DNA from: a virus
DNA length: 26,368 nt
Strand: one strand, 5' to 3'
IMG/VR virus record: IMGVR_UViG_3300025889_000826
Span: 1-26,368 of that record
Under the pieces are notes generated by a model. The model saw only the letters and a list, made by a program, of their open reading frames with translations, ran no database searches and had not been told where the DNA came from. Positions within the stretch are counted from its first letter, which is position 1. Each line of letters starts with the position of its first letter. Positions 6,938 through 13,099 of the stretch are shown here, piece by piece. The position numbers and the translations under genes were made by a program.

Positions 6938-7537
6938 CTATAATGCCCTAATACGGTTACTAACTACTTGGTCTACTAGACCATAATCCAATGCTTCCTG
7001 AGCAGACATAAACTTGTCGCGTTCCATGTCGCTAGCAAGGTCGTCAAAAGACTTGCCCTTGCTGTTGTGCTTGACATAGATGTTAGTTAGGTTTTTCTTC
7101 ATTTCAAGCAATTCCTTGACCTGAATCTCTACGTCAGTAGCCATACCCCTAGCACCGCCTGACGGCTGATGAATCATGTGCCTAGCATTGGGTAGCATTA
7201 GACGTTTGCCCGGGGCACCTGCTTGAGCGAGTAAACTTCCCATACTGCAAGCCTGTCCCATGACGATAGTGCTAACGTCGGCTTTGATGAACTGCATAGT
7301 ATCATAGATAGCCATACCCGCAGTAACAGAACCACCTGGACTGTTTATGTACAAGTTAATTTCTTTATCTGGATCTTCCGATTCTAGAAACAGCAATTGG
7401 GCTACAATGAGGTTAGCCATTTGATCATGTACTTCCCCTTCTAACAAGATAACTCTATCTCGTAGCAAGCGGGAATAAATGTCATAACTGCGCTCGCCGC
7501 GGCTAGTTTGTTCCAAAACAACAGGTACTAAAGTCAT
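6938..7537 (-). CDS. clpP: ClpP ATP-dependent protease proteolytic subunit
   Basis: 199 residues, full length. The catalytic triad is intact: S98 in [11 protein letters not shown]123 in [11 protein letters not shown], and D174 in MERDKF. The N terminus ([20 protein letters not shown]) is the mature ClpP pore-loop region, so there is little or no propeptide. The oxyanion SPGGSVTAG and handle regions are conserved, implying an active tetradecameric serine protease that needs a ClpX/ClpA-type unfoldase. ClpX and ClpS are encoded 3.2-6.2 kb away. An SD (GGAG) lies about 8 bases upstream, with a sigma70-like promoter of its own and a terminator 3'. Confidence 0.97.
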
Positions 7538-7558
7538 AATGATCTCCGATTTTTATTA

Positions 7559-7586
7559 ATTATAGATGATTAACAGGTTAAGTCAA
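7559..7586 (-). promoter_or_regulatory. sigma70-like promoter of clpP
   Basis: TTGACT (7586-7581), a 16-base spacer and TATAAT (7564-7559) on the minus strand, with the clpP SD and ATG 15-25 bases downstream. This suggests early expression by host polymerase. Confidence 0.75.
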
Positions 7587-7595
7587 CTTTATTGG

Positions 7596-9146
7596 TTACT
7601 TCTTTCTCTTCTTCCTGTTGGGACCAGTTGATTTTTTCTTTGCTTTCATTTTAGGTTCAACGATAGACTTTGCTGCTACTGACAAATCTAAAGAACGTCC
7701 CCTATTAGGCGCGAGACTTATCGGAGTTCCTATTCCTTCTTGATCATCATTGTCTGGCTTACCTGTACCTTTATCTATCTTGAAAGTGAAATTACCTTTT
7801 ATTCCCGTGCTGAAATAATTCTTACCAGCAGAGAAGTAAACGCCTTTGATAGTTTTGCTGGGGTAAACTGTATCGAAACTAGTTAGAGTCCATTCATTCG
7901 CACCCCTAGATGCTTTAGTATAAACCTGAACCAACGCACCGTTATTTAATATATCTCTGGCCGCGTCACTAAAATTAGTTTCATCATTTACTTTGATTGC
8001 AGCCTGATGTGCGATAGAAGCGATAAGATGATAGTAGAGGTTAACAGCGTCTGGATCTGCTGTTTGTCTATTTAAAGCATACTTCTTTAATCTGTCTGTT
8101 ATGTTAATACTTTTTAAATTATCTAGGTCAATTGCAGGAAGATTTCTCAAACGCCGTATTTGTTCTGCTTCTTTTTCATTGATGATTCTAAATTTCACTC
8201 CCAGATATAACGGTGCACCGTTTTGTCCTTCTTCTTGGACCTTCTTAATTATATCTACTTCTTCTTTATATTTCCTTAGTAATTTTTTACCATTAGAAGT
8301 TTCTTCTAATTCTTTTAATGAGTCTACTAGATTTTTAGCACTGGCTTCTGCACCCCTTCCTCCTTTGCTACTTAGTTTGATGAATCTACCGTCTGGTAAA
8401 GACAAAATACTGTCACTTAGTCCCGCAGTTTTACTATCGTCAAAAGTGATAGTAGTGTTAGAAAGGTCACCCCCTAAGAATATCTCTGCTGCGTCTGCTG
8501 CATTTCCTGTAAACTGACCTGTTTGCAACGCGATTGGCTGTAATATTTCACAAAAATAGTCCCTGAATGCTTCAAAAGTAACGTCGGGTGGTATAGGGAA
8601 TTTAATAGGTAGACCTGCCCCTGAAGCGAGTTCGTATGCTACTTTGTATAAGGGGCTATCTAAACCTAATTTACTTTCTAATTGTTTTAGTATAGCATTA
8701 GGTTTTAGATCATTTTTCTGGGTGAGTAAGTCTTGCGGGCTAACTCCTGATTTGGCCTTAGCAGCGGCTCGACCTGCGTAAGAATATCCATCTACTTGGT
8801 TTGGTATGTAGTTATCCCTATCAACAGGTTTGACCTGCTCTAGATATCTACCAAAATACATAGATTCGTTTGGTCCTTCAAATTTCATTATAGCGAATCC
8901 GCCAGTTCTAGCATTTCTAGCATTTTGCCATTTGACGTTTAGTGGGCTGACTTGTTTTAACGCTGCATCTAATTGTTTAGCATCAAACTTCCCTCCACCC
9001 TTTGGGTAGAATTCTATAGAATCAAAAGAGATAGTTTGATCGTCGGCGTTGGTAAAGATATCACCTGGTTTTCTATTAGCCAGACCTGTTGATTCCGACA
9101 AAGACTGTTGTTCTAAATTTTCAAAAATGTCTAGAATATCGCGCAT
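7596..9146 (-). CDS. putative virion/internal head protein, 516 residues
   Basis: 516 residues. The N terminus (MRDILDIFENLEQQS) resembles a T4-type capsid-targeting leader with an [IL]-x-x-[LE]-E cleavage-like site. Landmarks are DGYSYAGRAAAKAKSG (~118-133), KLSSKGGRGAEASAKNLVDS (~257-276), and a very basic C terminus (KAKKKSTGPNRKKRKK) suited to DNA contact. The middle is soluble alpha/beta without TM segments. No catalytic motif recognised. A late box lies three bases before the ATG, with no SD. Large proteins of this type occur in T4-like cyanophages as uncharacterised, possibly structural, products. The packaging role is inference from leader, promoter and basic tail. Confidence 0.75.
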   Translation of the reverse strand: MRDILDIFENLEQQSLSESTGLANRKPGDIFTNADDQTISFDSIEFYPKGGGKFDAKQLDAALKQVSPLNVKWQNARNARTGGFAIMKFEGPNESMYFGRYLEQVKPVDRDNYIPNQVDGYSYAGRAAAKAKSGVSPQDLLTQKNDLKPNAILKQLESKLGLDSPLYKVAYELASGAGLPIKFPIPPDVTFEAFRDYFCEILQPIALQTGQFTGNAADAAEIFLGGDLSNTTITFDDSKTAGLSDSILSLPDGRFIKLSSKGGRGAEASAKNLVDSLKELEETSNGKKLLRKYKEEVDIIKKVQEEGQNGAPLYLGVKFRIINEKEAEQIRRLRNLPAIDLDNLKSINITDRLKKYALNRQTADPDAVNLYYHLIASIAHQAAIKVNDETNFSDAARDILNNGALVQVYTKASRGANEWTLTSFDTVYPSKTIKGVYFSAGKNYFSTGIKGNFTFKIDKGTGKPDNDDQEGIGTPISLAPNRGRSLDLSVAAKSIVEPKMKAKKKSTGPNRKKRKK

Positions 9147-9149
9147 ATA

Positions 9150-9158
9150 GTATTTAGC
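9150..9158 (-). promoter_or_regulatory. late-type box GCTAAATAC close to start codon
   Basis: GCTAAATAC, then TAT, then the ATG at 9146. It overlaps the stop codon of the SprT-like gene (9154). Same layout as at 2519, 20366 and 23143. Confidence 0.5.
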
Positions 9159-9639
9159 ATTTCATTAAGTCTTGAAATTCAAACCATTTGTCTGGACTAT
9201 AAGCATCTTTTAAGGGAATGTTAGCCTTAGCGAACCTGTTCCTGAAAAGATAAAAACTGGGACCATGACTCATCAACGATTCCTTACCGTTTTTTTCACG
9301 TATCTTGCTCCATATGTCCCATTGATACTGATGAACCATTTCATGCGCTAAACACATTATAAACCATTGTTTACAGAACCAAGATGATGACATGATTATT
9401 TTACATCTGGATCTTTTTTCGCTGAAAGTAGAATGATCTCCTATGCATTCTCCCCAGTAACCCATGAGTCTTTCTTGTAAAATAATCTTTGGAATAACTA
9501 GTTGGTTCTTGAATAATTCTTGATTTAGTAGTCTATATACGGATCTTGCTTCACGTATAGAGGGTCTATATATCCTCTTTCTTTGTTCAGTCTTAGACGG
9601 CAAGTCTTCAGATATCAACTCTCGTATAGTTCTGGACAT
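9154..9639 (-). CDS. SprT-like zinc metalloprotease
   Basis: 161 residues. Zincin motif H99-E100-M-V-H103 (CLAHEMVHQYQ) with a third histidine H125 (SLMSHGPSF), as in the SprT/Spartan family. The upstream YRLLNQELFKNQLVIPKIIL helix-strand and MGYWGECIG stretch are also typical. Spartan-type proteases cleave proteins crosslinked to or bound on DNA; the phage role is unknown. The C-terminal Zn ribbon of SprT is absent. The first 12 residues (MSRTIRELISED) precede the fold and look like a capsid-targeting leader ending in a gp21-type L-x-x-E site. No SD. A late-type box lies five bases before the ATG. Confidence 0.85.
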   Translation of the reverse strand: MSRTIRELISEDLPSKTEQRKRIYRPSIREARSVYRLLNQELFKNQLVIPKIILQERLMGYWGECIGDHSTFSEKRSRCKIIMSSSWFCKQWFIMCLAHEMVHQYQWDIWSKIREKNGKESLMSHGPSFYLFRNRFAKANIPLKDAYSPDKWFEFQDLMKC

Positions 9640-9644
9640 ATAAT

Positions 9645-9653
9645 CTATTTAAC
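9645..9653 (-). promoter_or_regulatory. late-type box GTTAAATAG before the SprT-like gene
   Basis: GTTAAATAG followed by ATTAT and the ATG at 9639. It lies back-to-back with the plus-strand box at 9663, forming a 50-base divergent control region. Confidence 0.4.
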
Positions 9654-9662
9654 GAAAATTAG

Positions 9663-9671
9663 CATAAATAA
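9663..9671 (+). promoter_or_regulatory. T4-late-like box CATAAATAA on plus strand
   Basis: CATAAATAA ends 19 bases before the ATG at 9691, with AGGAG in between. This is the only such box at the start of a plus-strand gene, and it precedes the only plus-strand transcription unit. Confidence 0.55.
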
Positions 9672-9690
9672 CATTTTAGGAGAATGATTT

Positions 9691-10059
9691 ATGGAACTTG
9701 TTCTATTATTACTAGTTGCCGGCGTAGTTGGTTTGGTAGTAGTTGCTGCATTCAAGCATCAAGCAGAAGAAAAAAGTAATTTGGAAGATTTAGAATTACG
9801 TGCAAAAAAGTTACACGAAGATAACTATGGAGCAGTAAAACTAGAGCCAAAAGAAGAAGTTGTAGATGTTGAGCCAGCAGTCGAGGCTGTAGAAGCCGTG
9901 GCTGTAGTGGCATCTGATGCTGTAGTAGCATCCGACACAGAAGAGCAGCCAAAGAAGAAAGCAAAGAAAGCTGCTAAGAAGACTGCTGCTAAGAAAACTG
10001 CTAAGAAGAAGACTGCCGCGAAAACTAAAAGTAAACCGGATTTCAAAGTAGCAAAATAA
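9691..10059 (+). CDS. membrane-anchored lysine/alanine-rich (histone-H1-like tail) protein
   Basis: 122 residues. Residues 2-21 are a hydrophobic anchor (ELVLLLLVAGVVGLVVVAAF). The middle is acidic and Val/Ala/Glu-rich (~50-90). Residues ~90-122 are repeats of KK-A/T-A(K) like the C-terminal domains of histone H1 and bacterial Hc1 proteins (for example AKKAAKKTAAKKTAKKKTA). This suggests a protein that ties nucleic acid to the membrane, or simply a charged linker. SD AGGAG is eight bases upstream and a late box lies further up. Low-complexity composition makes homology weak. Followed after three bases by the phosphoesterase-like gene. Confidence 0.8.
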   Translation: MELVLLLLVAGVVGLVVVAAFKHQAEEKSNLEDLELRAKKLHEDNYGAVKLEPKEEVVDVEPAVEAVEAVAVVASDAVVASDTEEQPKKKAKKAAKKTAAKKTAKKKTAAKTKSKPDFKVAK

Positions 10060-10062
10060 AAA

Positions 10063-10761
10063 ATGAAAATAGGTTTCGACCTCATAAGTGACTTGTGCTT
10101 GTCACCCGAAGAAAATTTCAACTGGGAAAACAAAAGCACAAGTCTTATGTGTATTATAGCCGGTAATATCAGTAATGATATGAGGACTGTTAAGCAGACC
10201 CTGGGTCACCTATCTAGATTTTACCAGGGTATATTTTATACTCCGGGCTTCCTAGAATACGAAAATTGCGCCAATGTAGATCATCGAACAGAAGAATTAT
10301 TGGAATTATGTTCTGGATTACCTAATGTTGCTCTTTTATTTCAACATGTAGTAATCGTAGACGGTATAGCAATATTAGGGTGCAATGGTTGGTCTTTACC
10401 CTTTACTGACAAAATCGATAACCTAGAAGATGATAAAGAAACTGCTAGATACGAAGACGTTGTTTATCTGAAACGATCTATGGACAAGTTACAAAAACAT
10501 TTAGATGTTAAGAAGATAGTAATGGTTACTCATGCTGTACCCAACAAACAATTGTATTTCGGGGAGCAACCAAAATTTATAGAAGATCAAATAAACCTAG
10601 ACTATTGTTTAGATTTTGATTCTGAAAAGAAAGTATGTACTTGGGCTTTTGGTTCATACGAAAAAATAGTTGATACCACATTGCATGATATCAACTATGT
10701 CAACAACCCCTATAACAAAAGTCAGCCCTATTGGGCTAAAAGAGTCAACGTAGAAATTTAA
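10063..10761 (+). CDS. degenerate calcineurin-like phosphoesterase
   Basis: 232 residues. The order of segments matches metallophosphoesterases, but key ligands are replaced: FDLISDLCLS has D10-L-C12 in place of D-x-H; AGNISND has N35 in place of the GD aspartate; FYTPGFLEYE stands where GNHD/E is expected; and TWAFGSYEK stands in place of GHTH. Only THAVP (H157) looks normal. With most metal ligands missing it is probably not an active phosphatase and may be a binding or scaffold protein. Its last four bases overlap the 3' end of clpS in convergent orientation. The fold assignment is inference from motif order. Confidence 0.7.
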   Translation: MKIGFDLISDLCLSPEENFNWENKSTSLMCIIAGNISNDMRTVKQTLGHLSRFYQGIFYTPGFLEYENCANVDHRTEELLELCSGLPNVALLFQHVVIVDGIAILGCNGWSLPFTDKIDNLEDDKETARYEDVVYLKRSMDKLQKHLDVKKIVMVTHAVPNKQLYFGEQPKFIEDQINLDYCLDFDSEKKVCTWAFGSYEKIVDTTLHDINYVNNPYNKSQPYWAKRVNVEI

Positions 10762-11072
10762 CCTTTCTCCGCTTCGACCTTTACTTGTAAGGGATAACCT
10801 TGCGATCTGGCATCGAGAGTAACTTCGATTCCCTTTTGTTCTGCGATCTCATAGGGTAAAACTGCTACCACGGCGCTTCCCTCTTCATGAATATTCTTTG
10901 TAATTGACGATGCAGTATCGTTGTTATAGTTAAAATATTCAATTAGGCTATGTACTACAAAATCAAATGATGTAACATCATCGTTCATGTAAATTATCTT
11001 ATAAAGCGGTGGTTCTTGAAGATTAAGATTAGGCTTAATTTTACTCTTGATCTCTGGTGCTTCATGTGCCAT
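10758..11072 (-). CDS. clpS: ClpS adaptor (N-degron receptor)
   Basis: 104 residues. The ClpS core is complete: PPLYKIIYMNDDVTSFDFVV (N30, D31, D32 and T34 of the N-degron pocket), IHEEGSAVVAVLPYEIAEQK (H62), and a C-terminal VTLDARSQGYPLQVKVE. ClpS delivers proteins with bulky N-terminal residues to ClpA(P). No ClpA is in this window, so it may use host ClpA or have an altered partner. The gate residue equivalent to E. coli M40 is F36 here. The ~20-residue N-terminal extension needed for delivery is present. SD GAGG is eight bases upstream. Confidence 0.95.
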   Translation of the reverse strand: MAHEAPEIKSKIKPNLNLQEPPLYKIIYMNDDVTSFDFVVHSLIEYFNYNNDTASSITKNIHEEGSAVVAVLPYEIAEQKGIEVTLDARSQGYPLQVKVEAEKG

Positions 11073-11110
11073 CGTAGTTACCTCTCTTTGCTTGTAGATT
11101 ATCTACTATA

Positions 11111-11119
11111 CTATTTATT
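11111..11119 (-). promoter_or_regulatory. possible late box AATAAATAG before clpS
   Basis: AATAAATAG lies 38 bases before the clpS ATG, but it also encodes the last residues and stop of hsp20, so the match could be chance. A transcript from here would include the clpS SD. Confidence 0.3.
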
Positions 11120-11563
11120 GTATGTAATAGCAATCTTCTTTGGCTGCAATGCTTCTGGAATTTCACGCTTCAACTGAACCGTTAGGATTCCATGTTCTAG
11201 ATTTGCGCCAACGATCTCTACGTGTTCCGCCAATTTGAATTCTCTGCGGAAACTACGACCACCGATACCACGATGTAGATATGTGACTTCCTTTTCTAGT
11301 TCATCCAGAGACTCAATAATTTCTCCGGTAATCACAAGATGATTCTTATCCTTAGTTACGGACAAGTCAGAGGGCTTGAATCCTGCTACCGCTAGGCTGA
11401 TTTCATACTCATCTTCGTTAACTTGAACGACATTATATGGAGGATAATTATCAATCTGGCGTGTGTTGATAGAGTTTAACTCATCAAGCATTTCATCAAA
11501 ACCAACTGCGAATCTGTGAAGTCCTGGTACGTCGAATGAACGTAATGTTAGTGTTTTAGTCAT
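11111..11563 (-). CDS. hsp20: small heat-shock protein, Hsp20/IbpA type
   Basis: 150 residues from the ATG at 11563, chosen because AAAGGAG lies eight bases upstream; an in-frame ATG at 11587 would lie 5' of that SD. An alpha-crystallin domain covers ~40-135: YPPYNVVQVNEDEYEISLAV, AGFKPSDLSV, YLHRGIGGRSFRREFKLAEH and GILTVQLKREIPEAL. A C-terminal I-x-I type tail (KKIAI) is present. It binds unfolding proteins without ATP. Hsp20 is common in T4-like cyanophages. The 5' leader folds into two hairpins, the second masking the SD (see 11568-11624), so translation is probably temperature-controlled. Confidence 0.95.
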   Translation of the reverse strand: MTKTLTLRSFDVPGLHRFAVGFDEMLDELNSINTRQIDNYPPYNVVQVNEDEYEISLAVAGFKPSDLSVTKDKNHLVITGEIIESLDELEKEVTYLHRGIGGRSFRREFKLAEHVEIVGANLEHGILTVQLKREIPEALQPKKIAITYNK

Positions 11564-11567
11564 TTCT

Positions 11568-11624
11568 TTTCTCCTTTGTTTAAGCAAGAAATTTTATATT
11601 GTAGCCCTGACCATCAGCGACTAC
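11568..11624 (-). promoter_or_regulatory. ROSE-like RNA thermometer in the hsp20 leader
   Basis: Two hairpins in the minus-strand leader. Hairpin 1 (11624-11601): GTAG/CTAC closes a stem extended by CTGA/TCAG with a single bulged G. Hairpin 2 (11591-11568): UUUCUU-G-CUU pairs with AAGGAGAAA across the loop AAACA, giving nine pairs with G85 (position 11585) bulged. It buries the whole SD. The 5' arm contains UUGCU, the hallmark U(U/C)GCU of ROSE elements, which control bacterial hsp20 genes. The fold is done by eye; no energy was computed. Confidence 0.6.
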
Positions 11625-11629
11625 GATAT

Positions 11630-11638
11630 GTATTTATC
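11630..11638 (-). promoter_or_regulatory. T4-late-like box GATAAATAC of hsp20
   Basis: GATAAATAC flanked by GATATG and CATATC (11625-11643 is a near-palindrome). A start about six bases downstream would fall at 11624, exactly the first base of hairpin 1, which supports both the promoter and the leader structure. Confidence 0.55.
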
Positions 11639-11672
11639 ATATCAAATGTGACAAAAAAATCTACTATTTCGG

Positions 11673-11894
11673 TTAAAAATTTGTTTTTGGTAGGCTCTGC
11701 TGTGCTAGGTATTTCTTCCAACGCTTTACTGCCATAGCATGAGCCATTTTCTTCTGTACAGAAGGTTTGGTGTAAGTTTCTCTGTTTTGCAACTCTTGTA
11801 GCAAACCCGATTCTACAATCTTCTTTTTGAACTTGCGTAGGGCTTTATCTACGTTTCCATCTTTGACTTCTACTTTTCTACCTTGTAATCTCAT
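11673..11894 (-). CDS. rpsU: ribosomal protein bS21
   Basis: 73 residues. It has the bS21 layout: a beta start ([20 protein letters not shown]), a long basic helix ([19 protein letters not shown]) and the C-terminal [20 protein letters not shown]. bS21 sits at the platform of the 30S subunit near the anti-SD and helps start translation. Phage copies, known from pelagiphage HTVC008M and huge phages, are thought to steer host ribosomes toward phage mRNA. The ATG overlaps the clpX stop as ATGA (11891-11894), so it is translated in coupling with ClpX. Confidence 0.93.
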
Positions 11895-13099
11895 AATAAA
11901 CTTCTAGGCTCCTTAACTAATTCCTTTGTGATATTTATCTCGGTAATACCTTTTTCTTTATATTTGGATACATAATACATATGTTCCATCAAAACCCGTT
12001 CGATTTCTGTTTGCAAACCCCTTGCGCCCGTTTTTAATTTAGCGCAGTTAGCAGCCATTTCTTCTATAGCATCTTGCTCAAAAGTTAATTTAACATCGTC
12101 GATAGCAAACAAATGGGTATATTGATCTATAAAATTATTTTTAACCATAGTCAATACTTCTATTAATTGTGCTATCGTTAAGTCTTCTACTTTGATAGTT
12201 GTAGCAAATCTACCTATGAATTCTGGTATCATACCAAATCTAGTTAGATCATCAGGAGATATGTGCTTTAGATAGTCTTGATCTTCTTTAGACTGTATCG
12301 CTGCCGAAAATCCTATAGAAGTACCTTGCATCCTACTTTTTATGATATCATTCAATCCAACGAAAGCGCCGCCGGCTATGAATAATATGTTCTTAGTATC
12401 TACAATAATCATTTCACCTGATGGGTGCTTCCTGCCACCTGATGTTGGTACCCTACACTTAGTACCTTCTACTAGTTTGAGTAATGCTTGTTGTACTCCC
12501 TCACCTGATACATCTCTAGTGATACTAGCACTCTCACTCTTCCTAGCGATTTTATCTATCTCATCAATAAAAACTATTCCCCTCTCTGCTAGTGCTACAT
12601 TATTACCTGCTGCTTGTAGTAACATAGATATCATGCTTTCAACATCATCACCTACATATCCTGCTTCAGTTAGTGACGTAGCGTCTGCAACTACGAAAGG
12701 AACATTTAAATATTTAGCCACAGATTTTGCTAACAAAGTTTTGCCACTGCCTGTTGGGCCTATCAACAACACATTGCCTTTTTGTAATTCTATGTCTTCA
12801 GATGGATTATTAATCCTTTTATAGTGATTAGATATCGCTACACTTAGAACTTTTTTAGCCTGTTCTTGACCTATAACATGAAGATCAAGATATTCTTTGA
12901 TAGCAACCGGATCATCTACAGTCAAATTAGATTCTATAGTTTCAGGTTGAGCATTTCTTAGTACTAAGCCATGACATAGTTCTATACATTCGTTGCAGAT
13001 AGCAACATCGTTGGCTACTATTAGTTTCTTTACTTTATCTTTGTGTGTTTCACAAAAAGAACAAACATCTAATGTTGCATATTTATTATTGTCAGTCAT
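11891..13099 (-). CDS. clpX: ClpX unfoldase (AAA+ ATPase)
   Basis: 402 residues, close to full bacterial length. Zinc-binding domain C13/C16/C35/C38. Walker A GPTGSGKT (114-121), pore loop GYVG (147-150), Walker B IVFIDE (175-180), RKH loop (223-225), ClpP-docking IGF loop (262-264), arginine finger R297 in PEFIGR, and sensor II GAR (358-360). All parts needed for ATP-driven unfolding and docking on ClpP are present, so phage ClpX plus ClpP should form a working ClpXP. The zinc domain is the usual site for adaptors. It follows the frameshifted membrane gene by 18 bases, with no clear SD, and is coupled to bS21 downstream. Confidence 0.97.

Follow-up and report, generated by a model that had tools for sequence, protein, structure and literature searches.

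The question raised by this locus is whether a phage controls translation of its own small heat-shock protein with an RNA thermometer of the ROSE type. The locus lies in an IMG/VR virus record (IMGVR_UViG_3300025889_000826), whose 26,368 bases were analyzed as a whole and are referred to here as the window. Its phage genes encode DNA ligase, a head-maturation protease, ribosomal protein S21, a ClpX-like ATPase, ClpS, and Hsp20, and the region from 6938 to 13099 is rich in proteostasis genes (ClpP-like head-maturation protease, 6938-7537; ClpS, 10758-11072; Hsp20; S21; and the ClpX-like ATPase with a zinc finger, 11891-13099). The hsp20 gene itself (150 amino acids; 11111-11563) is encoded on the minus strand, as are all leader features described below, and was recognized by PF00011 (E = 4.5e-16) and phrog_432 (E = 5.3e-38).

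The hsp20 leader (11624-11559) comprises two hairpins. Upstream of it stands a putative T4-type late promoter box, GATAAATA, at 11638-11631; the original prediction had recognized this box but placed it at 11630-11638, off by one base. It was right that 11624 is the first base of hairpin 1, which is 7 nt beyond the box, and we predict that transcription starts at about this position. Among relatives, TAAATA ends 4 to 7 nt before hairpin 1 in 82 of 91 distinct leaders (exactly 5 nt in 51). A dyad that is apparent by eye around the late box was no better than those in shuffled sequences. Hairpin 1 (11624-11601; GUAGUC-[G]-CUGA-UGG-UCAG-GGCUAC, with a bulged G at 11618) is defined by the minimum free-energy fold and by covariation in relatives. 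Hairpin 2 opens with the anti-Shine-Dalgarno arm UUUCUUGCUU (11591-11582, bulged G at 11585), which contains CUUGCUU at 11588-11582 and, within it, the UUGCU that had been predicted there. In the ROSE register, the loop AAACA (11577-11581) leads into the 3' arm AAGGAGAAA (11576-11568), and CUU-[G]-CUU pairs with the Shine-Dalgarno (SD) sequence AAGGAG (11576-11571); this pairing is the ROSE signature, UYGCU. The start codon follows at 11563-11561.

The proposed fold between the late box and the hsp20 ATG is more than chance. The 70-nt leader folds with -17.0 kcal/mol compared with a mean of -8.2 for shuffled sequences (z = -4.1; none of 200 shuffles as good), and the window has a single match to the pattern CTTGCTTN{0,8}AAGGAGA, compared with no match in 100 shuffled versions. 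Hairpin 2 with nine pairs and one bulged G, as originally drawn, is a valid register at -14.9 kcal/mol but not the predicted minimum, which is a shifted register (AUUUCUU.CUU/GAG..AAGAAAU; -17.0 kcal/mol) in which the start codon is paired as well, through its AU. Nominal melting points of hairpin 2 were 49 to 57 C for phage medians and 56 C for the window, compared with 63 C for Pseudomonas ibpA and 70 C for Salmonella ibpA. If these modeled values hold, the marginal phage hairpin, weaker than its Pseudomonas and Salmonella counterparts, would suit cooler waters. The energy of SD opening in a nearest-neighbor model at 20 C was not above that of other phage leaders (median of 2.5 versus 3.05 kcal/mol) and was no discriminator; in the window, the same type of model predicted nearly constant opening from 5 to 55 C. 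Because nearest-neighbor models ignore the non-canonical contacts of ROSE, such computations neither prove nor exclude sensing.

Conservation of the leader in related phages is very strong. Searching named phages with megablast recovered no close relative of the window; distant matches to the leader led to Melnitz and S-H9-2, and a match to syn9 psbD was unrelated on inspection. Three IMG/VR relatives, with Hsp20 proteins 51 to 56% identical, keep hairpin 1 with compensatory changes as well as CUUGCUU followed by the SD. A pattern describing hairpin 1 matched 87 viral stretches against an estimated chance expectation of roughly one, and the gene 3' of the match encoded Hsp20, with groES-groEL in L049 as the sole other case. 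A looser pattern matched at least 119 stretches; among the matches listed, the gene was again hsp20, apart from a few chance matches and two dnaK genes. The design is present in cyanophages (S-H9-2, P-RSM1, S-CAM9, S-PRM1, S-RIM12, ACG-2014b, S-MbCM100, and S-MS29), Pelagibacter phage HTVC115P, methylophage Melnitz, Phage C48C1, and the jumbo phages Phosso and Atu_ph07; S-PM2, S-CAM7, P-SSM3, ACG-2014f, and Pseudomonas phage Ettore carry it too. Since patterns based on the motif select for the motif, we fetched hsp20 loci by protein similarity only, as an unbiased test. CUYGCU..GGAG was found in 141 of 143 distinct leaders (77 of 78 in the cyanophage-type group and 64 of 65 in a second protein group), so that the predicted pairing of UUGCU with the SD is very strongly conserved. 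Both exceptions are near-matches: L274 has GGGG instead of GGAG, and L342 has a longer loop. In protein-selected leaders, CUYGCUU is near-invariant at about 2 bits per position, versus about 0.2 to 1 bit in the linkers of the second group. A scan of bacterial genomes with the pattern gave 26 matches; apart from a phage-like contig that had been assigned to Parcubacteria, all were attributable to chance. Chaperone leaders of the phage type occur on two or more contigs of the Parcubacteria NP996 bin (L200/G006), which probably represent phage DNA placed in the wrong bin.

The two hairpins are supported in different ways. In an alignment of 28 leaders, 99.6% of pair cells were standard, and the covariation score was 0.392, compared with 0.115 after shuffling and at most 0.075 after sliding. 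For 94 protein-selected leaders, whose alignment was fitted to the model and leans towards it, the score was 0.367 versus 0.135 for shuffled alignments, with two-sided changes in 8 of 10 hairpin-1 pairs. Overall, 6 to 8 hairpin-1 pairs show two-sided compensatory changes in relatives; the bulged-G core (YGC/GG) is kept while the outer stem varies freely. The bulged-G core of the SD hairpin (Y-[G]-C paired with GG) recurs in hairpin 1 of all phage leaders, although no SD lies there. Hairpin 2 is paired in 99.3% of cells among the 94 relatives, with the Y-G pair being U-G in 50 and C-G in 44. The compensatory changes expected from the original prediction were found on both sides of hairpin-1 pairs, but in hairpin 2 of these 94 leaders every change affected one side of a pair (U-G became C-G at the Y position, and U-A became U-G), because the ribosome fixes the SD side. 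Support for hairpin 2 is conservation, not covariation. From such leaders we built a covariance model, R1, on which the window scores 64.8 bits by construction since it belongs to the training set. Leaders of named phages outside the training set matched R1 with E values from 1e-8 to 9e-4 (S-PRM1 is a weak exception, E = 0.4), and 29 of 30 whole phage records contained a match.

The phage leaders resemble one bacterial family in particular. The consensus of Rfam ROSE_3 (RF02523) is GAUGCCGAAgUCGGGUC..ACUcGCuGA..UCaGgAG, and bacterial ROSE_3 leaders read GCGGGAUGCCGAAGUCGGGUUCCGC..CUUGCUGA..UCAGGAG. Both ROSE_3 and the phage leaders have a first hairpin with an AUGCC..GGGU bulged-G core, a linker, and a second hairpin with CUYGCU/AGGAG, followed by the initiation codon of a small heat-shock gene. 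The hairpin-1 core of the window, GUCGCUGA..UCAGGGC, is a compensated variant of the ROSE_3 core GAUGCC..GGGUC. As in ROSE-like leaders generally, U(U/C)GCU lies opposite the SD in a 3' hairpin with a bulged G (CUUGCUU/AAGGAG in the window), directly upstream of a small heat-shock gene and, in phages, also of dnaK and groES. Unlike in ROSE_3, the phage hairpin 2 ends with CUU/AAG rather than CUGA/UCAG and is weaker, and transcription appears to come from a phage late promoter. Searches with the ROSE_3 model matched the exact site in L017 (35.7 bits), L200 (34.9), L208 (34.1), L240 (32.5), L096 (31.8), and L221 (28.0). The best of these has an E value of 6e-4 over all of Rfam, and no phage leader examined reaches the ROSE_3 gathering score of 43 bits. 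In several phages searched as single genomes, ROSE_3 was the top match at the chaperone leader. The search with Rfam ROSE models that the original prediction called for thus gave sub-threshold ROSE_3 matches on many relatives but none for the window, and at gathering scores Rfam returned nothing at the leaders of the window or its relatives. Conversely, R1 matches the ibpA leader of Pseudomonas (L452; E = 1.3e-6), a true ROSE_3 at 69.2 bits, and the two models match each other's sequences at the same site. R1 also recognizes an ibpA-like gene of bacterial type (L460) to which ROSE_3 gave no match at the threshold used. Taken together, sub-cut-off scores and reciprocal matches show the phage leaders to be closely related to ROSE_3 in both sequence and structure, though not members by the Rfam cut-off. 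The idea of a ROSE-like element in a phage is thus backed by the two-hairpin architecture with its UYGCU and bulged G, by these reciprocal matches, and by gene association, described below.

Other RNA families gave less. ROSE_2 (RF01832) had no match at phage leaders, ROSE_3 had none in four bacterial genomes, and the lone match of ROSE (RF00435), at the element in G001 (E = 4; 13.1 bits against a cut-off of 45), was unconvincing. ROSE_2, on enterobacterial ibpA, and the rhizobial ROSE share with the phage element a UYGCU anti-SD with a bulged G before a small heat-shock gene, and differ from it in their 5' hairpins. A fourU thermometer was rejected, as the anti-SD arm is CUUGCUU and no UUUU lies opposite AGGA; for freshwater-2 RNA (RF02980), a match of 22.9 bits (E = 0.11; threshold of 49.9 bits) agreed mainly in the SD region. 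Two records of the phage collection, L452 (OQ572409, "Pseudomonas phage Y7", unverified) and L453 (AFYI01000003), contain host ibpA with bacterial ROSE leaders and are probably host rather than phage DNA.

The element is associated with chaperone genes. Among 592 distinct SD-preceded open reading frames (ORFs) in 1.52 Mb of phage DNA, the motif preceded 114 of 119 Hsp20 genes, 10 of 10 DnaK genes, and 0 of 459 other genes, for which shuffling gives an expectation of about one; the Hsp20 count is inflated by how loci were found, whereas 8 of the 10 DnaK genes and the 459 others are free of that bias. Over 579 kb, R1 had 65 matches, all but one (E = 0.033) before hsp20, dnaK, or groES-groEL. Second copies of the R1 element precede dnaK in L038, L105, L108, L111, L123, L139, L147, L167, and L169, and the pattern scan yielded the dnaK leaders of L097 and L128. 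Copies before groES-groEL operons were found in L040, L049, L053, L077, L096, and L175, and one stands directly before groES in G003. The element also precedes a protein of 85 to 91 amino acids (MFTLDATIDAVQTGKKQFVKTFV..) in six large freshwater phages (L440 to L445), for which we found no convincing match to a Pfam, NCBIfam, or PHROG family, and, at L200:6000, a 70-amino-acid ORF without family match. Both look phasin-like by eye and are candidates for a new phage stress or chaperone protein. The scope is broader than originally proposed, both in genes (dnaK and groES besides hsp20) and in carriers (cyanophages, jumbo phages, a pelagiphage, and a methylophage).

With good confidence, we read the leader as a cis-regulatory RNA of two hairpins, related to ROSE_3, that would act as a thermometer for translation of phage chaperones. 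Late transcription would begin at the first base of hairpin 1, which would form a stable 5' hairpin and remain folded, while CUU-[G]-CUU on AAGGAG would hide the SD in a weak helix with a bulged G. Hairpin 2 would melt upon warming, or under a stress that frees the SD, so that ribosomes could bind and phage chaperone could be made. There is precedent in the ROSE-like ibpA leader of Pseudomonas, a two-hairpin thermometer proven to melt in hairpin II but not in hairpin I (Krajewski et al. 2013, PMC3669281). With one element on phage hsp20, dnaK, the groES-groEL operon, and a small uncharacterized gene, the result would be a small heat-shock regulon of viral origin that acts on translation. Given its place before almost every phage hsp20 examined and several dnaK and groES genes, many phages probably induce their own chaperones upon host warming or protein misfolding.

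A serious alternative to a thermometer, or a partner of it, is suggested by analogy with E. coli, where the ROSE leader of ibpA is bound and repressed by IbpA itself, R93 being indispensable and R97/K98 and the aromatic Y34 also needed (PMC10474464). The element might then be mainly a binding site for phage Hsp20, which would repress its own and other chaperone mRNAs until misfolded proteins titrate it away, with melting being secondary. Leader and protein are of the same kind in both systems, the critical R93 equivalent is Arg in the Hsp20 of the window and in most phage Hsp20s, and the equivalents of R97 and Y34 are retained in the window. Such a role would also fit the bulged-G core of hairpin 1, which is kept beyond the needs of a plain stabilizing stem, and a common site on hsp20, dnaK, and groES would be sensible as a regulon. 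Against it, not all charged residues are kept: the K98 equivalent is Glu in the window and Thr or Gly in others, and one large phage group with Lys at R93, which is inactive in E. coli, still keeps the element. We regard repression by Hsp20 as the main role as possible but doubtful. Equally tentative is a combination in which a mobile ROSE_3-type element would form a phage translational heat-shock regulon (hsp20, dnaK, groES-groEL, and the new small protein) that senses both temperature and free phage Hsp20; hairpin 1 would be the Hsp20 contact, so that chaperone output would follow misfolding during infection.

Strong sequence conservation would also be expected if the element bound another phage or host regulator, such as RegA, or a ligand, its resemblance to ROSE extending to SD masking only. 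The regA gene is directly upstream of hsp20 in S-H9-2, S-PRM1, S-PM2, and S-CAM7, but the window and jumbo phages keep the element with different neighbors, it is restricted to heat-shock genes, and its covariance-model similarity to ROSE_3 is reciprocal, all of which make such a regulator improbable. An ordinary strong late-gene leader, with a stabilizing 5' hairpin and a weakly paired SD of no regulatory role, would account for the late promoter directly upstream and for an SD opening energy like that of other leaders, but is already disfavored and very improbable given the motif's absence from all 459 non-chaperone ORFs and an anti-SD arm that is near-invariant between free linkers.

A thermometer of this kind would differ from those previously described. 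ROSE elements are described as always being on small heat-shock genes (PMC4166951), unlike the phage element with its dnaK, groES, and uncharacterized targets. The lambda cIII thermosensor and the SPbeta blyA fourU element are likewise RNA thermometers in phages (PMC10586365, PMC4166951); they have other structures and genes, neither controls a chaperone, they are single cases rather than a family, and cIII works in the opposite direction. The hsp17 thermometer of Synechocystis is relevant because many carriers of the phage element are cyanophages; as an excerpted account describes it (PMC4477652), its hairpin also masks the SD of a small heat-shock gene, as a single hairpin without hairpin 1. 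In the open-access literature, we found no report of a phage ROSE, a cyanophage thermometer, or a phage hsp20 leader. A 2023 paper names lambda cIII as the sole earlier phage thermometer besides its own SPbeta blyA (PMC10586365), and the excerpted text of the Melnitz genome paper reports riboswitches and no thermometer. Although hsp20 is listed as a core gene of T4-like cyanophages (PMC9004378), our search found no literature account of its control there. If our reading is true, ROSE extends from bacterial small heat-shock genes to viruses, Hsp70, and GroES, and a large share of aquatic phages translate chaperones under temperature control, which bears on infection in warming waters. How RNA thermometers set their temperature could then be studied on hundreds of natural variants, some perhaps adjusted to cooler habitats.

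Several leaders show further features. The hsp20 leaders of L028, L040, and L049 carry the anti-SD CUUCGUUU, a variant with the bulged G moved by one position and SD pairing retained, amounting to a natural register shift. An outer stem, GUCA:UGAC, surrounds hairpin 2 in many freshwater leaders (both sides in 88) and is treated as a lead because the context of the start codon fixes one side. In Prochlorococcus phage P-HM2 (L456), a weak R1 match (E = 0.016) at 425-478 falls within the annotated hsp20 ORF, which suggests that the annotated start (402 versus about 475) is too far upstream. In the groES leaders of L040, L049, L053, L096, and L175, the element is followed by an upstream ORF of 7 to 14 amino acids (MSKQTFLT, MSKHTYLT, MSMQYIF, MIKNLSPPDHSIST, and MTKSSQPVWLF), and in most of these five a TTGACA..TATAAT-type promoter lies between this ORF and groES. 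With a promoter 3' of the element, groES-groEL transcripts may be of two types, early and ungated or late and gated.
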